Shown piece after piece: positions 60,724-64,000 of a stretch of 64,000 nucleotides of DNA (positions within the stretch are counted from its first letter, which is position 1; each line of letters begins with the position of its first letter). The translations under genes and the position numbers were made by a program. The DNA is from an uncultured Bacteroidales bacterium (GTDB taxonomy: Bacteria; Bacteroidota; Bacteroidia; Bacteroidales; UBA932). Location: assembly GCA_944326325.1 (NCBI GenBank), contig CALVDQ010000001.1, forward strand, positions 124,001-188,000. The letters are read 5' to 3'. The notes beneath the pieces are model-generated. The model saw nothing but the letters and a program-made list of their open reading frames with translations. It was not told where the DNA came from and did no database searches.

Positions 60724-61755
60724 CTAAAACAGGGTTGCCTCCCCGCCTGTATCCGGAGAAGGCTCCATGCCGAGATGCCTGTAGGCCAGTTCCGTCACTT
60801 CCCTGCCCCGCGGCGTACGCACTATGAACCCCTCCTTTATGAGGAACGGCTCGTAGACCTCCTCCAGGGTACCCTGGTCTTCACCTATGGCAGTAGCTAT
60901 CGTATTGGCTCCTACCGGACCTCCCTTGAACTTTGTGATAATCGTCCGGAGGATCTTGTTGTCCACCGAATCAAGCCCCCTCTTGTCTATATTAAGGGCA
61001 TCCAGGGCATACCGCGCTATTTCGAGATCGATATGCCCGTCTCCTATCACCTGGGCGAAATCCCTCACCCTGCGGAGAAGGGAATTGGCTATACGCGGGG
61101 TACCCCGGCTGCGGAGGGCGACCTCGTTTGCGGCCGGTCCGTCTATACCTACCCCGAGGATGGATGCGCTTCTTTCGACGATACGCACGAGATCCTTCGT
61201 GTCATAGTATTCCAGCGCGAACTTTATCCCGAACCTGGCCCTGAGAGGGGAAGTGAGCAGACCGCTCCTTGTCGTGGCTCCGACCAGGGTGAACGGATTT
61301 AGGGATATCCTGACCGAACGTGCCCCGGGACCCTTGTCTATCATGATGTCAATGACGAAGTCCTCCATGGCCGAATAGAGATACTCCTCCACGACCGGAG
61401 AAAGACGGTGGATCTCGTCTATAAACAGCACGTCCCCCTCATCGAGGGAGGTAAGGAGCCCGGCAAGGTCGCCCGGCTTGTCGAGAACCGGTCCTGAAGT
61501 GACCTTCAGCCCGGCACCAAGCTCATTCGCTATTATATGAGCAAGAGTGGTCTTTCCCAGGCCGGGAGGCCCGTGGAACAGCACATGATCCAGAGACTCC
61601 CCTCTCATACGGGCGGCCTTGACGAATATCTTAAGGTTCGCTATTATCTTGTCCTGTCCGGTAAAGTCCCCAAGGGCCTGCGGCCTTATCACGCTGTCGA
61701 GCTCCCTGTCCTTGCCGGTTTCCGGGATGTGCGGGTCGAATCGCTCCTCCATCAT
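60724..61755 (-). CDS. ruvB: Holliday junction branch migration helicase RuvB
   Basis: RuvB is the hexameric motor that migrates Holliday junctions with RuvA. The protein of 343 residues starts at ATG 61755 or 61752; a TTG at 61761 is less likely. It shows the family start ([15 protein letters not shown]), Walker [12 protein letters not shown], Walker B DEIHRLSP, sensor 1 GATTRSG and the C-terminal winged helix ending [17 protein letters not shown]. It is complete. A -7 box (TATATTTG, 61773-61780) stands a few bases upstream. Confidence 0.98.
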
Positions 61756-61772
61756 AACCAAAAAAATTTTTA

Positions 61773-61780
61773 CAAATATA
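61773..61780 (-). promoter_or_regulatory. Candidate -7 box of ruvB
   Basis: TATATTTG on the minus strand matches TAnnTTTG; the leader would be about 12 nt. No -33 TTG at the right spacing was found. Confidence 0.4.
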
Positions 61781-61814
61781 GGTTATTTTAAAGGAATGAT
61801 TGTGAAGATGGTTG

Positions 61815-62065
61815 TGTGGATATGTTGATAACCTTGGAACCCCTACTGTATATCAGCATATTGCGTCAGTATTTTATTTACATCTCCTCCTGTTTGCACT
61901 GGAGGAAACACGTTGGGAAGATGTGGACTTTTTTCTTGGAATTTGAAATTAAATCCGGATTATACGTTTTTTTTGGATTTTATAATTTATTTTTGGGATT
62001 CTTTTCACAGGGTTATATACAGGTTGTCTACATGTTTTTGTAGGGTTGTCAACAGGTTTTCAACA
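61815..62065. other. AT-rich intergenic region with DnaA-box-like motifs (origin-like architecture)
   Basis: The 318-bp gap between divergent ruvB and mfd (61762-62079) has no gene. On its left side TGTGGATAT (61815-61823) and the overlapping TGTTGATAA (61823-61831) each match 8 of 9 positions of the DnaA box complement TGTGGATAA. A strongly AT-rich stretch with long T runs spans about 61928-61999. On its right five 11-bp repeats with 7-of-9 DnaA-box-like cores lie in register (62011-62065). This is the layout of a replication origin (boxes, unwinding element, phased boxes), but also fits a multi-site regulator of mfd. No dnaA, gidA or other origin marker gene is in the window. Confidence 0.4.
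62011..62065 (+). repeat. Five tandem 11-bp repeats, consensus GGTTnTCnACA
   Basis: Units at 62011 (GGTTATATACA), 62022 (GGTTGTCTACA), 62033 (TGTTTTTGTAG, degenerate), 62044 (GGTTGTCAACA) and 62055 (GGTTTTCAACA) are spaced by exactly 11 bp, one helical turn. Four of the five cores match TTATCCACA at 7 of 9 positions. The array ends 14 bp before the mfd ATG. Confidence 0.85.
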
Positions 62066-62079
62066 GAAATCGGACGGAA

Positions 62080-64000
62080 ATGTTAATAAACAGAAAATCT
62101 ACATCATTGCTCGAAGAGAAGCTGCGTAAATCTCCTGAGGTGTTCTGCTCGGGGCTGTTCCTGTCGGCGAGATGGTTCGTGCTGGCTTCTGCCGCACGGT
62201 CCGGGACCCATCTTGTGGTTCTTCCGGACAAGGAGTCGGCGGAGTACTGCGCTTCCGACCTGTACAACCTCATTGAGGGGGACAGGGTGTTCTTCCTTCC
62301 CGACACAGGCAAGAAGATCGAGAGAAGCAACTACAAGGCTTCCCTCGAGGTGCAGAGAACTTCCGCTCTGGGGCGCATTATGGAAGGGGAAAGGGACGGA
62401 CTGTCGGTGATAGTGTCCTATCCGGCGGCCCTCGGTGAGAAGATGCCCCCGCAGTCCAGGGTGAGCGAATCCGTGATAACGGTCAGGAAAGGTGAAGAGG
62501 TTGACTACGGGAACCTGTGCGGGAGGCTTGCGGCAGAAGGATTTTCAAAGGTGGATTTCGTTTCCGGTCCGGGGCAGTTCGCTGTGAGGGGTGGTCTTGT
62601 CGACATATTTTCATATTCCTTCAATAATCCTTTCAGGATATCCTTTTTCGGAAGCGAGGTGGAGAGCATCAGCATATTCAACTGCAATACGCAGCTCTCT
62701 GAAAGCCAGGTTGACAGTGTGGACATATATCCGGAACTCGTCTCGTCTGACGATGAGGAAGGAATACCTGTCTCCGATCTTTTCCGGGACGACACTACGG
62801 TGTGGCTGGATTCGTCCGACATGTACCGTGACGAGTGGTTCATGGCCGGGCTGCAGCGTTTCAGGAGGGTCTATATCGACACTCCCCTCTCCAGGCAGGA
62901 CGAGGAGCAGGTGCATTTCAGCATATCTCCGCAGCCGGTGTTCAACAAGAATTTCGAGCTCCTTGTCGAGGATATAAGGAAACGGACGGAGGAAGGCTGG
63001 AAAATAGTCATATTCGGAGAGAAGGAGTCCCAGCTCGAGAGGCTGAAGTCCATACTTTCCCAATATGGTGGCGTCATCCCCGAATTCTGTCCCGGAAAGA
63101 ATATCCACAACGGTTTTATCGACAGCCAGGACAGGATATGCTGCTATTCCGACCATGAGATATTCGACCGTTTTCACAGGGTCAGCATCCGGAGAAGTGT
63201 GGAGAAAAGCGAGCAGCTGACAATCAACGACCTCACCTCTTTCAACATTGGGGATTATGTGGTCCATATCGACCATGGGGTGGGTATTTTCGGAGGTCTT
63301 GTGCGCATCAGGGACGACAAGGGGCGGATGCACGAAGTCGTGAAACTGATATACAAGGACAATGATACCGTTCTCGTCTCCGTACATTCCCTCCACAAGA
63401 TTTCCAGATACAGGTCCAAGGATTCCGAGCCTCCGAAAATCCACAAGCTCGGGTCAAAGGCATGGCAGAACCTGAAGGCAAGCACCAAGAAAAAGGTAAA
63501 GGACATAGCCAAGGAACTTATACAGCTATATGCCAAGAGGAAAAGCATAAAGGGATTCGCCTTCTCCCCTGACTCATATCTTCAGGAGGAACTCGAATCC
63601 TCCTTCATATACGAGGATACGCCTGACCAGGAGAAGGCTGTACGTTCCGTAAAGATGGACATGGAGGCGGACTATCCGATGGACAGGCTCATCTGCGGCG
63701 ATGTCGGGTTCGGAAAGACGGAAGTTGCCGTAAGGGCCGCGTTCAAGGCTGTGGCTGACAGCAAACAGGTGGCTGTACTTGTACCTACTACGATACTTGC
63801 CCTGCAGCATTACAACACTTTCAAGGGACGCCTGAAGGATTTCCCTTGCAATATAGACTATGTAAGCCGTCTCAGAACGGCAAAAGAGATCACCGAAATA
63901 CAGAAAAAGCTGAAATCGGGGGCCATTGATATAATAATAGGTACACACAAGCTCATCGGCAAGGGATTCGAGTTCAAAGATCTCGGCCTTCTTGTCATCG
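62080..64000 (+). CDS. mfd: Transcription-repair coupling factor, 3' end cut by window edge
   Basis: Mfd removes stalled RNA polymerase and recruits UvrA to lesions. From ATG 62080 640 codons are visible and the frame runs off the right edge; full-length Mfd is about 1100 residues. The first 300 residues form the UvrB-like domains (RIMEGERDG, then VDFVSGPGQFAVRGGLVDIF). The RNA polymerase interaction domain follows with FNIGDYVVHIDHGVGIFGGL, and the helicase starts with the Q-motif region and Walker A GDVGFGKTE (540-548), then DIIIGTHKLIGKG. The repeat array lies directly upstream. Confidence 0.95.
   Translation, partial: MLINRKSTSLLEEKLRKSPEVFCSGLFLSARWFVLASAARSGTHLVVLPDKESAEYCASDLYNLIEGDRVFFLPDTGKKIERSNYKASLEVQRTSALGRIMEGERDGLSVIVSYPAALGEKMPPQSRVSESVITVRKGEEVDYGNLCGRLAAEGFSKVDFVSGPGQFAVRGGLVDIFSYSFNNPFRISFFGSEVESISIFNCNTQLSESQVDSVDIYPELVSSDDEEGIPVSDLFRDDTTVWLDSSDMYRDEWFMAGLQRFRRVYIDTPLSRQDEEQVHFSISPQPVFNKNFELLVEDIRKRTEEGWKIVIFGEKESQLERLKSILSQYGGVIPEFCPGKNIHNGFIDSQDRICCYSDHEIFDRFHRVSIRRSVEKSEQLTINDLTSFNIGDYVVHIDHGVGIFGGLVRIRDDKGRMHEVVKLIYKDNDTVLVSVHSLHKISRYRSKDSEPPKIHKLGSKAWQNLKASTKKKVKDIAKELIQLYAKRKSIKGFAFSPDSYLQEELESSFIYEDTPDQEKAVRSVKMDMEADYPMDRLICGDVGFGKTEVAVRAAFKAVADSKQVAVLVPTTILALQHYNTFKGRLKDFPCNIDYVSRLRTAKEITEIQKKLKSGAIDIIIGTHKLIGKGFEFKDLGLLVI

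Follow-up and report, generated by a model that had tools for sequence, protein, structure and literature searches.

A candidate chromosomal replication origin between ruvB and mfd in an uncultured Bacteroidales bacterium

We suggest that this bacterium and, by prediction from its relatives, its family have their chromosomal replication origin (oriC) in the gap between ruvB and mfd, a reading to which we assign a probability of roughly nine in ten. The gap, where GC skew changes sign, carries two groups of DnaA-box-like sites that point in opposite directions; AT-rich DNA separates and adjoins them. The original prediction had named this gap as a candidate oriC, and the reading is now supported by a contig skew minimum inside the gap, by boxes kept in relatives and by a dnaA locus that offers no rival. 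It would indicate where replication probably begins in a large group of uncultured bacteria in which a search beside dnaA cannot locate the origin. A located origin would also anchor growth-rate estimates made from metagenome read depth.

DnaA-box-like sites and AT-rich DNA in the gap

The analyzed stretch of DNA (the window, 64,000 nucleotides) corresponds to C1:124001-188000, where C1 is one contig of a draft assembly of 34 contigs and 2.50 Mb. As first described, ruvB and mfd diverge from the gap, and Pfam matches confirm both neighbors (Table 1). The TTG start of ruvB is a mechanical call, and an in-frame ATG lies a few codons downstream.

Table 1. Features of the ruvB-mfd locus, in window coordinates
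Feature	Position	Strand	Remarks
ruvB	60724-61761	-	Left neighbor, read away from the gap; open reading frame; Pfam RuvB_N, AAA_lid_4, RuvB_C
ruvB-mfd gap, proposed oriC	61762-62079		Contains the contig GC-skew minimum (61773)
AT-rich stretch beside ruvB	61762-61800		85% AT; candidate unwinding element
TATATTTG, TAnnTTTG match towards ruvB	61773-61780	-	Inside the AT-rich stretch 61762-61800
Left pair of DnaA-box-like sites, 8 bp apart	61815-61831 (61815-61823, 61823-61831)	-	Match to TTATCCACA
Isolated weak DnaA-box-like site TTATTTACA	61874-61882	+	7/9 match
AT-rich stretch with T runs	61928-61999		78% AT; candidate unwinding element
TATTTTTG, TAnnTTTG match	61988-61995	+	Motif match; possible mfd -7 element
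Right array of DnaA-box-like sites	62013-62065	+	Boxes at 62013, 62024, 62046 and 62057; exact 11-bp register
DnaA-box-like TTATTAACA over the mfd start codon	62081-62089	-	7/9 match; absent from the original prediction
mfd	62080-64000	+	Right neighbor, extends past the window end; Pfam UvrB_inter, CarD_TRCF_RID, DEAD

A pair of 8-of-9 DnaA-box matches in inverted orientation had been reported at 61815-61831, and it is present there: the minus-strand sites ATATCCACA and TTATCAACA each match TTATCCACA at 8 of 9 positions and have one base in common. Likewise, the five 11-mers in exact register reported on the mfd side were recovered, four of them with cores that match the box consensus at 7 of 9 positions; the slot at 62035 (TTTTTGTAG) is degenerate, retaining the register and not the sequence.

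The number and spacing of the boxes were compared with 5000 dinucleotide shuffles of the gap, with matches scored against TTATCCACA. The gap holds seven matches with at most two mismatches, a count equalled in 2 of the 5000 shuffles, and the four-box chain at 11-bp spacing arose in none of them. Matches with at most one mismatch are less striking, as the two found in the gap were reached in 53 of the 5000 shuffles. On both strands of the 498-kb contig, this is the only place where three or more boxes follow one another at 11-bp spacing, and TTNTCAACANNTTNTCAACA, with up to one mismatch allowed, occurs a single time in the 2.5-Mb genome, at window position 62046. Box density depends on the threshold chosen: at two or fewer mismatches to TTATCCACA the gap leads with 8 sites per 320 bp against 5 for the runner-up, at one or fewer it holds 2 against 3 in the interior of mfd, and with up to one mismatch to TTWTCMACA both hold 5. 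The cluster inside mfd (62939-63247, coding) consists of five one-mismatch sites, four on the plus and one on the minus strand, without an 11-bp chain, and we took it as chance.

An AT-rich stretch with T runs had been put forward as the unwinding element. Its presence holds, at an AT content well above that of the whole gap (67%) and of the window (47%); as an unwinding element, 61928-61999 is one of two candidates. The other, 61762-61800, had gone unlisted and is the more AT-rich of the two. The least stable 60 bp of the gap rank within the top 0.12% of the contig. TAnnTTTG, which we take to be the Bacteroidota -7 promoter motif, occurs towards mfd in the last 150 bp of the gap in 19 of 79 gaps. 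Since the same motif is found towards ruvB, no more than 60 bp from that end of the gap, in all 79 of 79 gaps, the conservation of 61762-61800 may be for the ruvB promoter, for unwinding, or for both.

DnaA-trios are defined by three or more trinucleotides with a middle A, located 0-16 bp beyond a DnaA box. Using a search other than the published scoring program, we found no DnaA box in 61741-62140 with three consecutive TAG/TAA trios next to it. Two trio-like runs occur in this interval against a shuffle mean of 1.8, and TAATAA (62084-62089) is the sole trio-like stretch near the last plus-strand box.

Strand skew and the dnaA locus

Cumulative skew was read on two of the 34 contigs, C1 (all 498 kb) and C9. 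On C1 the exact minimum of cumulative GC skew falls at C1 185773, which is window position 61773 and lies within the gap, so that the original prediction also agrees with the skew of the contig. GC skew is about -0.03 to the left of the gap and +0.024 to +0.038 to its right. The extremes of AT skew and keto skew lie 9.5 kb to the right of the gap, and purine skew on C1 showed no agreement with the GC-skew turn. Gene co-orientation is weak: long frames point leftward in 68 of 115 cases on the left and rightward in 108 of 190 on the right, and over the 100 kb immediately right of the gap, 48% by length point rightward.

Bacterial oriC usually lies beside dnaA, and in Bacteroidetes this is not required. 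Here dnaA is located on a separate contig (C9:74460), hence the ruvB-mfd gap on C1 is not beside it. The DnaA protein of this genome has the three usual domains (N-terminal, ATPase and DNA-binding). An origin on the dnaA side was rejected for this genome: C9 (103,684 bp) displays a single skew slope with no skew turn, and the surroundings of dnaA contain scattered one-mismatch boxes only, with no box cluster.

Conservation in relatives and the limits of the arrangement

Relatives were collected by a scan with the window's portion of Mfd, and the best 80 of 211 related loci were kept; some of their records carry the name Candidatus Cryptobacteroides. A divergent ruvB lies upstream of mfd in 78 of the 80, and the contigs of the remaining two give just 37 and 274 bp before mfd. 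The gap measures 239 to 341 bp in the 78 relatives and shows a recurring layout: minus boxes lie on the ruvB side and plus boxes ahead of mfd, and in most cases the mfd start is overlaid by a minus box. A left minus pair 8-9 bp apart occurs in 55 of 78 (shuffle mean 0.1), two or more right plus boxes in 71 (0.2), a right tandem with 10-13 bp spacing in 58 (0.05) and a minus box over the mfd start in 67 (0.45). Any left minus box, the loosest of the five tallied features, is found in 78 of 78 against a shuffle mean of 17.1. The 78 relatives are related to one another, and these tallies do not equal 78 separate events. The recurring layout, with its 11-bp register and one degenerate slot, offers dozens of natural variants from which to learn how box phasing and orientation serve to build a Bacteroidota initiation complex.

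Local skew was tallied at 45 loci; the other 35 of the 80 were excluded because their flanking sequence was too short. GC skew rises from negative values to positive ones over the gap at 39 of these 45, and 6 show no sign flip. At 32 of the 45 the local minimum is no farther than 1.5 kb from the mfd start, and at 19 it falls in the interval from -350 to +100 bp relative to that start. A genome of the same genus (G471), sampled as 14 stretches of a 674,617-bp contig, has its sampled minimum on the mfd stretch; this minimum is shallow, skew is weak and the halves of the mfd stretch show no sign flip.

The 13 relatives whose local minimum lies farther than 1.5 kb from mfd, together with the displaced AT and keto skew extremes on C1, would fit an origin situated nearby, for example in a neighboring gap a few kilobases off, with the boxes described here as an accessory site for DnaA. 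We consider this highly improbable, as it does not sit with a GC-skew minimum inside the gap itself, with the lack of a second chain of three or more boxes on the contig, or with the retention of both the gap layout and the ruvB-mfd neighbors across relatives.

Two single-contig complete genomes from other genera of the family, G297 and G362, were each sampled as 20 stretches of 20 kb, one of them centered on the mfd start. The two genes diverge in each genome, and no other of the 20 sampled stretches has as many boxes as the mfd stretch (8 in G297 and 6 in G362). Cumulative skew, in 10-kb steps, reaches its lowest point exactly at the mfd start in each of the two genomes, raw and mean-removed; the values are estimates, since the sums over the sampled stretches do not return to zero. 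In G297 (2,229,011 bp) the skew maximum, at about 1.77 Mb, is almost opposite 0.67 Mb, and the mean-removed minimum is slightly below another minimum at 1.11 Mb. The maximum of G362 is not clearly opposite mfd. A genome of another genus of the family (G115) likewise has divergent ruvB and mfd, with skew changing from -0.096 to +0.124 and left minus boxes; a clear right array was not seen at its ruvB-mfd gap. Across the family, an exact box tandem is found anywhere in 90 of 249 genomes, our own counted, compared with 1 of 249 for a reversed-pattern control. At least 23 of these 90, a lower bound from the part of the mfd places that was listed, have the tandem 34-168 bp from an mfd match. Thus the boxes expected to persist in close relatives do persist, and the cluster is also found in other genera of the family.

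The order-wide form of the arrangement was rejected. Among 31 genomes from other families of the order, four of which have just ~2-3 kb upstream of mfd on the contig, none (0/31) has ruvB upstream of mfd within the flank examined, and none has a comparable box array at mfd. Because these genomes lack both, the ruvB-oriC-mfd context looks like a family trait and not a phylum rule.

Negative-to-positive skew across mfd is nonetheless seen in 9 of the same 31 genomes, an observation that would suit a purely accidental origin of the signals, in which AT-rich intergenic DNA happens to contain box-like words and local skew changes on account of two divergent genes. Divergent genes can flip local skew by themselves, and the relatives are not independent. 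We find this account barely credible: the phased chain is absent from every shuffle, four of the five box features recur in 55-71 of the 78 relatives against shuffle means of 0.05-0.45, the fifth and loosest in 78 against 17.1, and the skew trend spans hundreds of kilobases.

Tandem boxes were also used as an origin marker in other families, where 38 of 148 genomes match (our own genome and G115 included), compared with 5 of 148 for a reversed-pattern control. Of 16 box clusters inspected, one of them from G115, two (L149 and L145) combine boxes with negative-to-positive skew; the L145 array lies within a frame, close to the contig end. The L149 cluster (L149:9031-9491, genome G125) has thirteen box-like sites in both orientations, three of them in a 12-bp tandem, and skew changes from -0.029 to +0.041 across the sites. 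It is flanked by a 462-aa frame without an NCBIfam match, with nadA beyond it, and by a lipoamide dehydrogenase gene, and may be the oriC of another family, set among different genes. Perfect 12-bp tandem runs, with three to six units of TTATCCACA, TTTTCCACA or TTATCAACA, were seen in L145, L146, L147 and L148. Two of these runs are inside frames and one adjoins a gene with primase-polymerase-like and helicase-like matches; they are possibly iterons of mobile elements.

Proposed initiation scheme and the link to mfd

In the scheme that we propose, ATP-DnaA would first bind the better-matching boxes, namely the left minus-strand pair and the right plus-strand boxes nearest mfd. The weaker boxes in 11-bp phase would then be filled by ATP-DnaA, giving a filament of DnaA, arranged head to tail, along a single helix face. 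An adjacent AT-rich stretch, 61762-61800 or 61928-61999, would open, and two replisomes would depart in opposite directions. The stretch 61928-61999 sits at the 5' ends of the right boxes.

The oriC of E. coli likewise has two opposite box groups, a mixture of strong and weak boxes and AT-rich unwinding DNA, whereas fewer box-like sites were found in the ruvB-mfd gap and the gene neighbors differ, as judged from the part of PMC10316083 drawn on here. According to the same excerpt, B. subtilis has boxes followed by a GC-rich spacer and then an unwinding region with TAG/TAA trios (PMC10316083). The gap resembles the B. subtilis-type basal unwinding system in its tandem DnaA boxes adjoining AT-rich DNA, and differs from it in that three such trios in a row were not found next to a box (PMC8287927, in excerpt). 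In the open-licence literature we found no report that ties DnaA-trios to oriC in Bacteroidota.

The predicted oriC of Prevotella intermedia chromosome I (Ori-Finder/DoriC) is far from dnaA, as is reported to be common in Bacteroidetes (PMC4755523, in excerpt). Like the gap described here, that origin and other predicted Bacteroidetes origins have multiple DnaA boxes at a GC-skew transition remote from dnaA; the excerpted portion does not name the gene neighbors of the P. intermedia locus and does not mention ruvB or mfd (PMC4755523). A predicted origin away from dnaA is thus already on record in Bacteroidetes, and the ruvB-mfd context was not found described in the literature searched, as far as the consulted portions extend. 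A search of open-licence literature, DoriC not included, likewise yielded no description of an oriC in Cryptobacteroides or of an oriC beside ruvB and mfd in Bacteroidota; the one paper in which oriC, both genes and Bacteroidota come up together is, going by its listing, a review of phytoplasmas. In the excerpts cited, Bacteroidota origins are predictions.

Unusually, boxes of the candidate origin extend over the leader of mfd and its start codon, which are covered by the right array together with one further box. Occupancy of these sites by DnaA would thus probably reduce mfd transcription as well. The original prediction had offered a DnaA-controlled mfd promoter as its other reading. Such a promoter may hold alongside oriC; alone, it leaves the skew unexplained. 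That the boxes form only a DnaA-controlled promoter of mfd, and perhaps of ruvB too, with replication starting elsewhere, has in its favor the place of the right array between the possible -7 motif and the mfd start, as well as box-like tandems at other promoters of the family (mraZ in relatives, rpsL in this genome). We regard it as very unlikely, since it would leave unexplained the skew minimum of the 498-kb contig, the minimum at the gap in the two sampled complete genomes (G297, G362) and the ruvB-side minus boxes in 78 of 78 relatives.

The start of mfd carries a codon bias. Codon 2 is Leu in 71 of 80 relatives, written TTA or TTG in 69 of those 71, and codon 3 is Ile in 78 of 80, written ATA in 76 of 78. 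At internal codons of the same mfd genes, TTA and TTG make up 12% of Leu and ATA 59% of Ile. Gene starts favor such codons anyway: at positions 2-4 of the long frames of C1 they account for 21 of 43 Leu and 29 of 65 Ile. The bias at mfd codons 2-3 exceeds both controls and retains ATGTTRATAA, which is TTATYAACA on the minus strand. As a sign of a start-codon box the bias is suggestive, and weakened by the relatedness of the sequences.

A more speculative extension, which we hold to be possible and on balance doubtful, is that the family origin is fused to the mfd leader through the right array and the start-codon box, with codons 2-3 held as TTR-ATA. Each initiation would then switch mfd off and afterwards release it; transcription-coupled repair would be timed to initiation, and selection would act on the start codon as part of the origin. 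Since a box overlies that codon in mfd, any coupling of initiation to transcription-coupled repair is open to a direct test.

Box tandems also occur at other genes. A tandem of the form TTTTCCACA-N3-TTATCAACA or TTTTCAACA lies 73-103 bp from the start of mraZ, the gene that heads the cell-division cluster, in 20 of the 20 relatives selected because they carry one (L168:6581-6601, L200-L219). The tandem at the mraZ start is shared by G362, and the mraZ of our own genome (L220) has one-mismatch words only at the tandem position. It could be a DnaA-box pair or an operator of MraZ, which we assume to consist of GTGG repeats. A second exact tandem, TTATCAACA-N3-TTATCAACA, is located on the same contig outside the window (G000:C1:21131-21151, L003), ~76 bp upstream of an operon that we take, from its protein starts, to be rpsL-rpsG-fusA-like. 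It suggests a possible link between DnaA and ribosome genes.
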